NCBI RefSeq assembly: GCF_003259525.1
Contig: NZ_QLLO01000005.1
Span: forward strand, 186,001 to 250,000
Source of the DNA: Olleya aquimaris
GTDB lineage: Bacteria; Bacteroidota; Bacteroidia; Flavobacteriales; Flavobacteriaceae
Direction: 5' to 3'
Length of the DNA: 64,000 bases
Each line of letters starts with the position of its first letter. Positions within the stretch are counted from its first letter, which is position 1. Both the position numbers and the translations under genes were made by a program. Shown in pieces: positions 2,982 through 40,872 of the stretch. The notes below the pieces were generated by a model. That model did no database searches. It was not told the DNA's origin and was given only the letters and a program-made list of their open reading frames with translations.

Positions 2982-4322
2982 TTATAAATTTCTTACTGCT
3001 TCTTTAAATTGACGACCTCTATCTTCATAATTTTCAAATAAATCAAAACTTGCACATGCTGGAGAAAGCAACACATTATCTCCTGCTTCCGCAATTTTGT
3101 ATGCTATTTTTACTGCCTCGCTCATAAACTGAGTTTCTACGATAATGTCAACCATTTTGCCAAAGCTTGCTATAAGCTTTTCATTATCTGTACCTAAACA
3201 GATGATTGCTTTAACCTTTTCGTTTATAAACGGAAACAACTCCTCGTAGTTATTACCTTTATCCACACCTCCAACAATCCAAACTGTTGGTGCTTCCATA
3301 CTTTCTAGCGCAAAATACGTAGCATTAACATTGGTTGCTTTAGAGTCGTTTATGTATTGTACTTTATTAATTTTTAATACATTTTCTAATCGATGCTCTA
3401 CTCCTTGAAAGTTTTCTAAACTTTCACGAATAGTTTGTTTTCTAATTTTAAGCAAATGTCCTACTGTTGATGCAGCCATTGCGTTTTTAATGTTGTGTTT
3501 ACCCTCTAATGCGATGTTTTTTGTTGGCATAATTATCTGGTTATTATCTATGGTTATCTTAATATTATCTTGATCTAAATACGCTCCGTTTTCAATTGTT
3601 TTAGTTAGCGAAAACGGTAATAATGTAGATTGAATGGAATTGTTTTTTAGGTACTCTAAAATCACTTCATCATCCGCATCATAAATCAAATAATCGTCTT
3701 TGGTTTGATTTTGAACTATTCTGAATTTTGAAGCGATATAGTTTTCAAACTCATAATTGTAGCGATCTAAATGATCTGGAACAATATTAGTTATGATGGC
3801 TATTTTAGGATTAAAATCGAAACAACCATCTAATTGAAAACTGCTAATTTCTAACACATAATTATCAAAATCATGGTCCAAAACTTGCTTTGCAAAACTA
3901 TCACCAATATTACCTGCTAAACCAACATCTAACTCTTGTTTTAACACGTGATGCGTTAACATAGATGTTGTGGTTTTACCATTACTTCCTGTAATGGCTA
4001 CAATAGTAGCATTAGTATATTTTGAAGCAAATTCTATTTCAGAAATTACCGGAATACCCTTTTTTAAAAGCGCTTTTACCATAGGCACTTTATCTGGTAT
4101 TCCTGGGCTTTTCATCACGACATTTGCATTTAAAATTTTAGCTTCTGTGTGCTGTTGGTCTTCCCATTCAATATTATTATTTATAAGAACGTTTTTATAT
4201 TTTTCTTTTATTATTCCTTTGTCTGAAACAAAAACCTCATAGCCTTTTGCCTGTCCCAAAAGCGCTGTACCTACTCCACTTTCTCCACCACCCAATATGA
4301 CTAATTTAGATTTACGACTCAT
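2982..4322 (-). CDS. murD: UDP-MurNAc-L-Ala--D-Glu ligase MurD
   Basis: Cytoplasmic ligase that adds D-Glu to UDP-MurNAc-L-Ala. It has an N-terminal Rossmann-like domain, the ATP loop GSNGKTTT at residues 112-119, the DHLDRYN motif in the central domain, and the C-terminal motif GGVDKGNNY. The length of 446 is normal. The ATG at 4322 lies only 3 bases after the stop of the inserted four-helix-bundle gene. The first codons (MSRKS) fall inside a 7-nt periodic repeat that also covers the end of that gene, so the repeat reaches into murD itself. Confidence 0.97.
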   Translation of the reverse strand: MSRKSKLVILGGGESGVGTALLGQAKGYEVFVSDKGIIKEKYKNVLINNNIEWEDQQHTEAKILNANVVMKSPGIPDKVPMVKALLKKGIPVISEIEFASKYTNATIVAITGSNGKTTTSMLTHHVLKQELDVGLAGNIGDSFAKQVLDHDFDNYVLEISSFQLDGCFDFNPKIAIITNIVPDHLDRYNYEFENYIASKFRIVQNQTKDDYLIYDADDEVILEYLKNNSIQSTLLPFSLTKTIENGAYLDQDNIKITIDNNQIIMPTKNIALEGKHNIKNAMAASTVGHLLKIRKQTIRESLENFQGVEHRLENVLKINKVQYINDSKATNVNATYFALESMEAPTVWIVGGVDKGNNYEELFPFINEKVKAIICLGTDNEKLIASFGKMVDIIVETQFMSEAVKIAYKIAEAGDNVLLSPACASFDLFENYEDRGRQFKEAVRNL

Positions 4323-4343
4323 GAATTACGATTTACGATTTCG
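4309..4343 (+). repeat. Degenerate heptad array, left side of the four-helix-bundle gene
   Basis: Five consecutive 7-nt units read GATTTAC, GACTCAT, GAATTAC, GATTTAC, GATTTCG on the plus strand, so the first two bases are constant. The array covers the first codons of murD and the last codons and stop of the four-helix-bundle gene. It points inward, opposite to the array at 4688-4722. Confidence 0.75.
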
Positions 4344-4685
4344 TGTTCGCATTGTTTTTATTGATGCTACAACAATTGACAATAATTCATTCCCTTCTCC
4401 ATGTAATCGTTTTATTTCTGCATGTTCTTTATCAGAAATTTCCATCATTAACTCAAGGAAATACATACTTTCATCAGCTTCCTCTTCTACAATTTTTAAT
4501 TTATTAATGAAATCTGCATCAGACTTTGCTCTACAAGCTGCCCTATAATTAGCTCCAACAGAACTTGAACATCTTATTAGCTGATTACAATACGCATTAT
4601 ACTCTCTTGAAACCGGAAACTTGGCACACAAATTCCAACAGTCTGCTGCATATTTTCTTGTTCTTTTTTTTAATGCTTCTTTCAT
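4326..4685 (-). CDS. Four-helix-bundle protein (23S rRNA intervening-sequence protein family)
   Basis: A 119-residue, all-helical, charged protein of the family once called S23 or IVP, first met inside 23S rRNA intervening sequences and later as scattered single genes in many Bacteroidota. Family hallmarks are an N-terminal stretch with CNQLIRCSSSVGANYRAA and a central helix with KLKIVEEEADES. Its molecular role is unknown. It is an intruder in the dcw operon: the core order mraY-murD is interrupted only by this gene. The tail (TRNRKS) and the leader are both made of 7-nt repeats, suggesting arrival as a cassette. It reads in the operon direction, so it is probably co-transcribed. Confidence 0.9.
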   Translation of the reverse strand: MKEALKKRTRKYAADCWNLCAKFPVSREYNAYCNQLIRCSSSVGANYRAACRAKSDADFINKLKIVEEEADESMYFLELMMEISDKEHAEIKRLHGEGNELLSIVVASIKTMRTRNRKS

Positions 4686-4687
4686 TA

Positions 4688-4722
4688 TTCAATCCTAATT
4701 CTAAAATCGTATATCAAAAATC
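4688..4722 (-). repeat. Degenerate heptad array, right side of the four-helix-bundle gene
   Basis: Five consecutive 7-nt units read on the minus strand as GATTTTT, GATATAC, GATTTTA, GAATTAG, GATTGAA, directly followed by TAATG holding the gene's start codon. The units resemble those at 4309-4343 but lie in the opposite orientation, so the two arrays form inward-facing terminal repeats. Confidence 0.75.
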
Positions 4723-4725
4723 TGA

Positions 4726-5958
4726 CTATCTTAATTTCAAGGTCACAATGGATAGTATGGCTAGAAAAATTCCAACAATCCAAAACCGTGTGACTATTTT
4801 ACTTTCGTGATATCCTTTTTTCTGATAGTGATGGTGTAAAGGCGACATTAAAAATATACGTCGTCCTTCACCATACTTTTTTCTTGTATATTTAAAATAG
4901 GTAACTTGTATAATGACTGATAATGATTCTGCAAAGAAGATTCCGCATAGTAAAGGAATTAGTAATTCCTTTCTAACCGCAACTGCTATAACTGCAATCA
5001 CACCACCAATAGTTAAACTTCCAGTATCACCCATAAATACTTGTGCTGGATAGGTATTGTACCATAAAAATCCAATGAGAGCTCCCACAAAAGCAGCTAT
5101 AAATACTACCATTTCACCTAAACGAGGGATGAACATAACATTGAGATAATCTGAGAATACGATGTTTCCAGAAATGAAAGCAAAAATGGCTAATGCAAAT
5201 ACAATTATGGCAGAACTACCTGCTGCTAAACCATCTATTCCATCAGTTAGATTAGCTCCGTTAGATACTGCTGTTACAATAAAAATGACGATTGGGATAA
5301 AAACTAACCAAGCATATTTTGCATAATCATCTCCCATCCATGTTATTAAGTTTGAATAATCAAACTCGTTATTCTTTACAAAAGGAATGGTTGTTTTAAG
5401 CGATTGCTCTTCTACATTAAACTCTCTAGGTGAATTTTGAGTGATTAATTCGGTTTCATAAATTGGATTAATTTTTTCTGTCTTGATGGTGATTCCTGGA
5501 TGAAAATACATGATTGCACCAACAAACAAGCCCAACCCAACTTGACCCATGACTTTAAATTTTCCGCTAAGACCAGCTTTATCTTTTTTAAATACTTTTA
5601 TATAATCGTCTGTAAATCCAACCGCTCCCATCCAAAGCATGGTAACAATAAGCATAACCACATAAATGTTATCTAGCTTTGCTAATAACAACACAGGTAT
5701 TAAGGTTGCTAGAATAATTATAATTCCACCCATGGTTGGTGTACCTGCTTTTTCTAACTGACCTTCTAGACCTAAATCCCTAACCGATTCTCCAACCTGT
5801 TTTTTCTGTAAAGCAACAATGATACGTTTACCGAAAATTGTAGAAAATAACAAGGATAATATGATTGCCAAAGCAGCTCTAAACGTGATGAATTGAAACA
5901 CACTTGCGCCTGGAAATTGGTAGTTTTTTTCTAAAAATTCAAATAAGTAGTATAACAT
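4726..5958 (-). CDS. mraY: Phospho-MurNAc-pentapeptide transferase MraY
   Basis: Integral membrane enzyme that transfers phospho-MurNAc-pentapeptide from UDP to undecaprenyl phosphate to give lipid I. Catalytic and conserved motifs are present: [25 protein letters not shown] and the HHH motif in [10 protein letters not shown]. The start was placed at the ATG giving [11 protein letters not shown]; an in-frame ATG 24 bases upstream (5982) would add eight residues of leader-like sequence. With 410 residues it is longer than E. coli MraY because of a loop of roughly 60 residues between early membrane segments, a common feature of the Bacteroidota enzyme. Confidence 0.96.
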
Positions 5959-6022
5959 TTGTTGGTTTTTTAAATAGCACATCGACTAGCTCTGTGCGAC
6001 ATTTTCATTAGTTTACTTGTGT

Positions 6023-9821: not shown

Positions 9822-9856
9822 TTCTAGCTTTTGGCTTTTGGCTTTTGGCTATTTGC
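9822..9856 (-). repeat. Heptad array forming the tail of rsmH
   Basis: Five 7-nt units read on the minus strand as GCAAATA, three identical GCCAAAA, then GCTAGAA. They encode the Lys/Ala/Ser-rich last residues of RsmH and contain its TAG stop. The period is 7 although the region is coding, so this is not a codon-driven repeat. Confidence 0.75.
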
Positions 9857-10756
9857 TTTCTCTGCTATTCTTAGTTTTGCACTACGTGCTCTGTTGTTTA
9901 ATTTTATTTCTTCTTTAGTTGGCACTATTAGTCCACCAACTTTTTTTAATGGCACTTCAAAATGTCCAAACACATCACGTTCAGGCTCACCTTCAAACAA
10001 CCCATTTCTTATAAACCGTTTAACTAATCTATCTTCTAGACTGTGATAAGAGATTAAACTTAATCGGCCTTTTGGTTTTAAAATTTCTGGTGTTTGTTGC
10101 AAAAACTCTTTTAACGCTTCAATTTCTTGATTAACCTCAATCCTTATAGCTTGATAGATTTGAGCTAATATTTTGTTTTCATGTTTTGGAGCTAAAAACT
10201 TTTGAAGCACTTTTTTAAGTTGCTCGCTGGTTTTTATAACTTCATTTTTACGATGTTCGACAATTAACCTTGCCATAGCTGGTGCTGCACGAAGCTCTCC
10301 ATATTGAGACAACACCTGTCTTAGTTGCTCTTCTTCATATTCATTTACCACATGATAAGCAGATAACTGACTATTTTGATTCATGCGCATATCTAAATTG
10401 GCTTCAAATCGAGTTGAAAACCCACGTTCTGCGACATCAAACTGATGCGAGGACACCCCAAAATCTGCTAAAATCCCATCTACTTCTTTGACTCCATGAA
10501 AACGCAAAAAACGTTTGATATATCTAAAATTTTCATGAATAAGCGTAAATCTAGGATCGTCAATAGCATTATCAAGCGCATCTTTATCTTGGTCAAAAGC
10601 ATATAGCTTTCCGTTTTCACCCAAACGATTTAAAATCTCTTGACTGTGCCCACCACCTCCAAAGGTGACATCTACATAAACGCCATCTTTTTTGATTGCT
10701 AAACCATCAACCGTTTCGTGTAATAATACTGGATTATGATATGCTGTCATCTCCAT
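9824..10756 (-). CDS. rsmH: 16S rRNA m4C1402 N4-methyltransferase RsmH (MraW)
   Basis: SAM-dependent methyltransferase that modifies C1402 in the decoding centre of 16S rRNA. The SAM-binding motif is VDVTFGGGGHSQEIL near residue 30. The signature YHSLEDRLVKRF lies near residue 217. It overlaps the mraZ stop by 23 bases; a second ATG two codons downstream (10750) is an equally possible start. The last about ten residues are encoded by a heptad DNA repeat and are likely dispensable. Confidence 0.97.
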   Translation of the reverse strand: MEMTAYHNPVLLHETVDGLAIKKDGVYVDVTFGGGGHSQEILNRLGENGKLYAFDQDKDALDNAIDDPRFTLIHENFRYIKRFLRFHGVKEVDGILADFGVSSHQFDVAERGFSTRFEANLDMRMNQNSQLSAYHVVNEYEEEQLRQVLSQYGELRAAPAMARLIVEHRKNEVIKTSEQLKKVLQKFLAPKHENKILAQIYQAIRIEVNQEIEALKEFLQQTPEILKPKGRLSLISYHSLEDRLVKRFIRNGLFEGEPERDVFGHFEVPLKKVGGLIVPTKEEIKLNNRARSAKLRIAEKANSQKPKAKS

Positions 10757-40790: not shown

Positions 40791-40799
40791 ATTTTTTTA

Positions 40800-40868
40800 G
40801 TCTTCAGTCTTTAGTAATCAGTCTTCAGTTAGCATTTGACTGCATACTGTTAACTGCATACTGTTGAC
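40800..40868. repeat. Gene-less head-to-head heptad array between nqrD and nqrE
   Basis: The plus strand holds five 7-nt units GTCTTCA, GTCTTTA, GTAATCA, GTCTTCA, GTTAGCA. The minus strand from the other end reads GTCAACA, GTATGCA, GTTAACA, GTATGCA, GTCAAAT. All start with GT and nine of ten end in A. The two five-unit arrays face each other and fill the whole gap, the same layout as around the four-helix-bundle gene but with no gene inside. Confidence 0.8.
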
Positions 40869-40872
40869 TTTT

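Follow-up and report, generated by a model that had tools for sequence, protein, structure and literature searches.

A probable intervening-sequence-type cassette at the mraY-murD junction of Olleya aquimaris: a small four-helix-bundle gene bounded by inward-facing short-repeat arrays

RESULTS

A four-helix-bundle gene between mraY and murD

The window analyzed here is a 64,000-nt stretch of the Olleya aquimaris genome (contig NZ_QLLO01000005.1, positions 186,001 to 250,000). On its minus strand, a small gene of 119 codons (4326 to 4685) separates two host genes, upstream mraY (4726 to 5982) and downstream murD (2982 to 4322), as the first-pass annotation had described; we take these names, and those of the nqr, sdh, suf, atp, clp, and rsmH genes mentioned below, from recognition of the translations. 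The gene is bracketed by two inward-reading arrays of five GAnnnnn units each. The downstream array lies on the plus strand at 4309 to 4343 (GATTTAC GACTCAT GAATTAC GATTTAC GATTTCG), and the upstream array (4688 to 4722) is read on the minus strand from 4722 (GATTTTT GATATAC GATTTTA GAATTAG GATTGAA). Along the coding strand of the small gene, the upstream array begins 3 nt past the mraY stop, and the downstream array spans the last codons and the stop of the small gene together with murD codons 1 to 5, a reach into murD that had been proposed at first reading and is borne out by the coordinates.

For the downstream array, Tandem Repeats Finder reported ATTTACG repeated 5.6 times at 4304 to 4341 (score of 41); it gave no entry for the right-side array (4688 to 4722). 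An independent search for inverted pairs detected arms of 29 nt (4305 to 4333 and 4691 to 4719) that are 76% complementary. On both strands of the 64-kb window, there are two runs of at least five GA dinucleotides at a spacing of 7 nt, and both are the arrays of this copy. When the two 100-nt flanks were dinucleotide-shuffled 20,000 times, the left flank never produced a GA run of five and the right flank did so 17 times; in none of the 20,000 shuffles did both flanks carry such a run of the same dinucleotide. Thus, letters and shuffles agree with the five-plus-five inward-facing heptads first noted at these positions.

By profile, the 119-amino-acid product is of the 23S_rRNA_IVP or four-helix-bundle type, scoring 77.8 bits against TIGR02436 (cut-off of 24) and 53.2 bits against PF05635 (cut-off of 33.8). 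These scores above the curated cut-offs, together with the four helices of its AlphaFold2 model (pLDDT of 95), place it in the S23/IVP family. The best Foldseek match was 2rld, and the nearest solved folds, 2rld and 2gsc, both belong to the same family and contain five chains each; a Xanthomonas member is called a homopentamer in the portion of the literature covered. Likeness to these relatives suggests that the window protein, as part of a pentamer-forming family, may itself be pentameric. The next Foldseek matches were the Avd chains of 4dwl and 8ub7 (TMq of 0.64 to 0.75; E of 0.02 to 0.05). A crude, uncorrected count gave dN/dS values of 0.03, 0.15, 0.20, and 0.17 for the four usable pairs of related copies among seven, indicating purifying selection; L257/L258 and L258/L267 (unaligned, with values over 1) and L262/L263 (three changes only) were set aside.

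The inserted segment (minus strand, approximate limits 4309 to 4725) measures about 0.4 kb and is filled by the four-helix gene, with no transposase in it as judged from the list of open reading frames (ORFs). Two opposite-strand ORFs of 83 and 81 amino acids, known as ORFs only, overlap the segment, and within the cassette there is no room for a reverse transcriptase with template and variable repeats. Elsewhere in the window, a single minus-strand array of AGCCAAA (four to five units, 9827 to 9859) was observed at the 3' end of rsmH, where it lengthens the ORF (ANSQKPKAKS); it is absent in seven same-genus relatives, and a partly similar stretch occurs in G067, the closest relative of this genome.

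Empty sites and other copies in the genome

We located murD in 30 of 31 genomes, this genome included, and the four-helix gene was found at the mraY-murD junction in 0 of 29 relatives (330 bases before murD, with the end of mraY present). In G067, whose murD stretch is 96% identical, the mraY stop TAA runs directly into the murD ATG, and heptads are absent. The objection that relatives lacking the gene might keep the heptads therefore falls away, and, since this site is empty and without heptads, the window gene most likely arrived with its arrays. The mraY stop is TAG in the window copy versus TAA in G067, and murD begins with MSRKSKLVILGG in this genome versus MKRLVVLGG in G067. The murD start thus looks rebuilt by the array, as had been suspected, with the qualification that its N-terminal length is variable among other relatives too.

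This genome holds seven copies above the cut-off, plus fragments at one further place, and the six of the seven that were aligned are highly diverged from each other. The copy at sdhA-sdhB (L001) is absent in eight of eight relatives, seven of which keep both flanking genes, and the copy at a suf junction (L002) is absent in seven of eight, the eighth being unreadable in the stretch viewed. The empty sites of L001, L002, and the window copy carry no arrays. L003 and L004 are common to this genome and G067 at the same sites, and L003 also occurs in G061, where very long expanded ACT-type arrays, both in direct orientation, were observed (L251). The L005 gene has an in-frame stop, and at its site in G067 there is a short pair without a gene whose outer units match those of the gene-bearing copy, a state compatible with gene loss.

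Distribution of the family and generality of the arrays

Of 60 genomes from the taxonomic family of O. aquimaris, 45 had a member of the gene family, as did 110 of the 148 Bacteroidota genomes sampled and none of 14 control genomes; the gene family also occurs in Clostridia, Fibrobacter, Cyanobacteria, Peregrinibacteria, and others. One query found no match in 50,697 phage records. Both neighbors lie on the same strand in 185 of 208 copies, so the cassette sits mostly between co-directional genes. The initial description of lone genes confined to Bacteroidota consequently does not hold.

Periodicity of 7 nt (at least 0.6) was found in 23 upstream and 27 downstream flanks of the first 36 loci versus 4 of 360 control segments, and in 16 upstream and 18 downstream flanks of the next 29 loci, phylum-wide, versus 9 of 290. 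Lags other than 7 were rejected for the first 36 loci, their means being close to the control, whereas lag 7 reached 0.63 versus 0.40. Across 227 loci, arrays of a common period lay on both flanks in 135 (2 of 650 control pairs) and on at least one flank in 207 (71 of 650), the both-flank signal being missing in 92. Chance low-complexity repeats are ruled out by these 650 control pairs and the shuffles described above. Among 80 copies whose two flanks both carry 7-nt arrays, unit similarity was 0.642 within a copy versus 0.476 between copies, and the inverted reading exceeded the direct one in 72, with 8 not favoring it; by median, three foreign arrays among the 80 outscored a copy's own partner array. 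The objection that other members of the family might lack periodic flanks is thus answered by a majority of copies, mostly with inverted arrays.

It is important to consider how these sets were built. The 227 rows, the source of the final figures, are 230 rows minus three more near-identical ones; the 230 gave 135 loci with both flanks, 210 with at least one, and 18 period changes on the protein tree versus a shuffle minimum of 38. They derive in turn from 237 rows by removal of L331 (mis-extracted at a contig edge) and the doubles L292, L295, and L297 to L300. The 237-row set underlies the flank-homology, unit-similarity, and clade-cluster results, and the same seven rows are in the fold pool. 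The pooled sets exclude the fragments L008, L009, L260, and L265, which score below the cut-off, and all pooled counts exclude L349 (contig edge, wrong frame).

Lag 7 was also over-represented among control segments that passed the array test, accounting for 35 of the 48 that did so at the strictest threshold out of 1681; heptad arrays are thus present at a distance from the gene as well. In a comparison of heptad density with copy number, lag-7 arrays numbered 0 in 400 kb from three genomes without a match versus 2 in 400 kb from three rich ones. Heptads were rejected as the commonest repeat of this genome, since 858 kb at one threshold held 44 lag-6 and 42 lag-9 arrays versus 27 at lag 7, two of the latter being runs of N. 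Consequently, the claim made here rests on the place and pairing of the arrays.

Loci titled as outside Bacteroidota, often as metagenome bins, carried arrays on both flanks in 16 of 19 cases and on at least one in 18. Additionally, 30 plasmid records had a match, and 15 were examined (thirteen cyanobacterial, one Gemmatirosa, and one Azospirillum). All 15 loci scored at least 11 on both sides, measured in wider flanks and without a matched control, with a best lag of 7 in 13 and 8 in 2, and 9 of 15 passed the standard both-flank test. The Azospirillum lipoferum locus (L361) lies within 23S rRNA (1412.7 bits against the bacterial LSU model) and has an S23-type ORF with GACAGAG-type heptads on both sides; the gene table, which omits RNA genes, shows no feature there. 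Three cyanobacterial plasmids (L351, L352, and L360) carry the cassette inside CRISPR operons, two of them at the cas6-cas4 junction and one with cas10 on one side and a cmr3-family gene on the other.

Between loci without flank homology, the best gene match was 82%, and what they had in common was the gene together with some or all of the array sequence; recent near-identical transposed copies were not present in the sample. The cassette was also seen repeatedly at a few junctions in distant genera (L018, L019, L022, L025, L119, and others), recognized by eye as fadB-fadA, a thiolase-acyl-CoA dehydrogenase pair, and paaI-pcaF. Either vertical inheritance or repeated insertion would account for this recurrence.

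Repeat period and protein lineage

Repeat period and, more weakly, unit sequence track protein lineage. Of 227 loci, 196 gave a callable period (150 at 7, 35 at 8, 8 at 6, and 3 at 9). Placed on the protein tree, these calls require 20 changes, whereas 200 label shuffles required at least 39 and 43.3 on average. This set is enriched for two clades that were deliberately searched for; the 165 loci collected before the clade searches gave 11 changes versus a shuffle minimum of 18. A model of the period-8 clade was searched in 395 genomes, where a score gap from 156.5 to 139.3 bits sets the members apart. The 30 rows listed above the gap comprise 7 known copies (L070 and six others), 21 new ones that were examined, and 2 without a locus. 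Period 8 was called in 18 of the 21 new copies, one of them (L296) 98% identical to a known copy; 2 more were best at 8 under the threshold, 1 was called 9, and period 7 was called in none. Below the gap, L320 (called 7) has the same sequence as L149, and L319 is best at 7 but under the threshold, so these loci add no new test.

Many members of the period-8 clade sit at orthologous positions. Grouped by flank homology, 29 clade members form eight clusters, three of them wholly new and all mostly of period 8, and the 88 other clusters divide as 73, 10, 3, and 2 at periods 7, 8, 6, and 9, respectively. A clean period-6 clade was also considered and held only in part: many of its relatives have a CAGT-like core in common, but their periods are 6 or 7 and, in one case, 8. 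Furthermore, unit similarity fell with protein distance from 0.584 in the nearest class (7 pairs) through 0.543 (50) and 0.495 (232) to 0.445 in the farthest (675); these are means over pairs without flank homology, without a permutation test.

Array length and a predicted RNA stem

Both the mode and the median of array length were 5 units (71 of 256 arrays at five; spread of 2 to 19), and a five-unit mode beside a five-subunit protein is suggestive. In 70 copies, the window copy not among them, the mean duplex energy of the two arrays was -28.2 kcal/mol within a copy versus -11.5 between copies, and reordering the units weakened the pairing slightly (mean z of -0.59, n = 69). Folds were predicted for 61 of 170 eligible copies, and pairing was defined as 40% or more of the upstream-array bases engaging the downstream array. 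This was the case in 36 of 61 folds versus 17 of 122 in which arrays had been swapped; in the window copy, the predicted share of upstream-array bases so paired is 62%.

Gene-less pairs

Inward-facing pairs also occur without the gene. At nqrD-nqrE, there is a pair of five plus five AGTnnnn units (40794 to 40872). Of nine same-genus relatives searched for this site, one gave no match, and the other eight are empty there. By eye, a 12-nt duplication, GAAGACTAAAAA in the sense orientation, flanks this insert, and the host 7-mer GAAGACT is identical to the array unit, a single case. A second inverted pair without a gene lies between two genes of a clp operon (446837 to 446901 of contig C1; L220:6837-6901) and is absent from G067, the one relative examined, where the two genes overlap by one base; no target duplication is evident there, nor is one clear at L001 or the window copy. 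With nqrDE as the one clear case, target duplication was not taken as a general rule. The atpA-atpG spacer (L189:7920-8007, L365 to L370) holds gene-less hairpins in several relatives, whose arms, by eye, vary in sequence by species and keep their complementarity. Lastly, gene-less arrays with the unit of the window copy (GATTTAC/GAATTAC) lie elsewhere in this genome.

DISCUSSION

We consider the locus a copy of a widespread intervening-sequence (IVS)-type cassette of about 0.4 kb, in which a small four-helix gene is bounded by inward short-repeat arrays, most often of 7 nt and about five units, and we give this reading a probability of roughly 0.65. Insertion, with the arrays accompanying the gene, is well supported. 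The first-pass annotation had proposed a mobile cassette without its own transposase; the empty sites uphold the insertion, and mobility is what we infer from them and from unrelated loci sharing the gene plus arrays alone, no movement having been observed. Several results count against the reading: the absence of recent transposition from the sample and the high divergence of this genome's own copies, the 92 copies without the both-flank signal, the single clear target duplication, the direct arrays of L251, the 8 of 80 copies not favoring inversion, the lag-7 enrichment among control segments, the mixed periods around the proposed period-6 clade, the small effect of unit order on the stem, and the argument (PMC4990558) that the S23p of Coxiella is not produced in vivo.

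Among known systems, cyanobacterial STRR repeats and MITE-type elements form part of the background. The gene-less inverted pairs, short and inserted between operon genes, resemble MITE-type elements; unlike them, they have no known parent transposase, and their ends are arrays rather than one fixed inverted repeat. The closest parallel is the IVS of Coxiella, described in passages of PMC4990558 as an element of 428 nt with an S23 ORF and complementary ends that RNase III excises. Two or three GACAGAT heptads, their number variable among strains, precede that ORF, and the 5' cut of RNase III falls at the first heptad (PMC4990558). Thus, heptads beside one S23 gene have already been published. 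The Coxiella element is sporadic and thought to have been horizontally acquired, and its S23p is argued not to be made in vivo (PMC4990558).

The window copy shares with this IVS its size, its protein family, and a terminal inverted stem, that is, an S23-type ORF between complementary ends, and L361, which is inserted in rRNA and flanked on either side by heptad arrays, extends the likeness. However, the window copy lies in a protein-coding operon, between mraY and murD; since it is outside rRNA, we file it as IVS-type and not as an IVS proper. It differs further in that cutting by RNase III is here a proposal based on predicted pairing, and in that purifying selection acts on the protein in the tested pairs.

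Heptameric intergenic repeats of Xanthomonas and Nostoc are described in parts of PMC4692102 as 7-nt, mostly intergenic, and generally without association with mobile elements, with 70 and 75 convergent pairs in two Xanthomonas genomes. TAACTGA repeats are similarly reported from Beggiatoaceae, Cyanobacteria, and Bacteroidetes with no evident transfer mechanism in the passages covered (PMC4679880). Our arrays resemble these in their 7-nt units, the few units per array, and their mostly intergenic position, and by the description drawn from both sources, the window copy, with 7-nt direct repeats in a spacer and a convergent pair, is itself such a repeat. A word search of the main texts of PMC4692102 and PMC4679880 found no link to a four-helix gene, and a general association of gene and arrays was not found in the open-licence literature, a scope that excludes most subscription journals and all preprints. 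Nor is a function of the S23 family given in the portions of that literature covered. Avd, the accessory protein of diversity-generating retroelements (4dwl and 8ub7), has the same fold, and its relation to PF05635 is noted in part of PMC10053308; unlike Avd systems, the cassette has no reverse transcriptase or template/variable repeat.

These comparisons suggest how the cassette might work. The window copy most likely inserted between mraY and murD after the split from the closest sampled relative, in the direction of the operon, and would have supplied a new murD start region. The arrays would form the cassette ends and, judging from the link between lineage and period, are probably repeated recognition sites for the cassette's own protein, perhaps with one array unit per pentamer subunit. 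In the operon transcript, base pairing between the two arrays would give a long, imperfect stem resembling the one in the 23S rRNA IVS, at which RNase III is proposed to cut the cassette out and so spare the host operon. Spread may be aided by machinery encoded outside the cassette, and the gene-less pairs would be deletion derivatives or separately spread copies. A more far-reaching version, which we hold only tentatively, is that the pentameric four-helix protein both determines and recognizes the repeat period of the arrays at the ends of its own cassette, forming a minimal mobile element across phyla.

One alternative is that the gene homes into inverted heptad arrays made beforehand by other means. 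The gene-less pair at the L005 site in G067, with its shared outer units, the gene-less GATTTAC/GAATTAC arrays, and the host 7-mer at nqrDE all fit such a landing site; however, the empty sites of the window copy, L001, and L002 have no arrays, and the in-frame stop of L005 means that gene loss explains the G067 pair equally well, which leaves this alternative unlikely.

We regard as quite improbable that the arrays are a mutational by-product of hairpin-templated correction and slippage in operon spacers, with the gene as a passenger. The atpA-atpG arms could reflect hairpin-driven sequence change and are the best support for this explanation, to which the expanded arrays of L251 may be added, yet it leaves unexplained both the excess of both-flank arrays over control pairs and the link between period and protein lineage.

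An operon regulator inherited vertically after an ancient and rare insertion, with the arrays as RNA sites controlling the downstream gene, would agree with the co-directional neighbors, the shared positions of L003 and L004 in G067, the purifying selection, and the recurrence by eye of several copies at one junction in different genera, but it has little probability given that the mraY-murD, sdhA-sdhB, and suf copies are missing in every, or almost every, relative viewed and that cassettes at unrelated loci have gene and arrays alone in common.

The inserted cassette, as we favor it, would link the S23 family and rRNA intervening sequences to heptameric repeats, all three so far unexplained, and indicates that core operons, mraY-murD and sdhA-sdhB among them, may take up tiny cassettes and stay intact. 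If the tentative version in which the protein sets the period were true, a period of 6, 7, or 8 nt would be fixed by protein lineage, with about one unit per subunit, and the rRNA IVS, the heptads of cyanobacteria, xanthomonads, and Bacteroidota, and the S23 family would be explained together. It would also imply a transposase-free making or copying of short repeat arrays at DNA ends.
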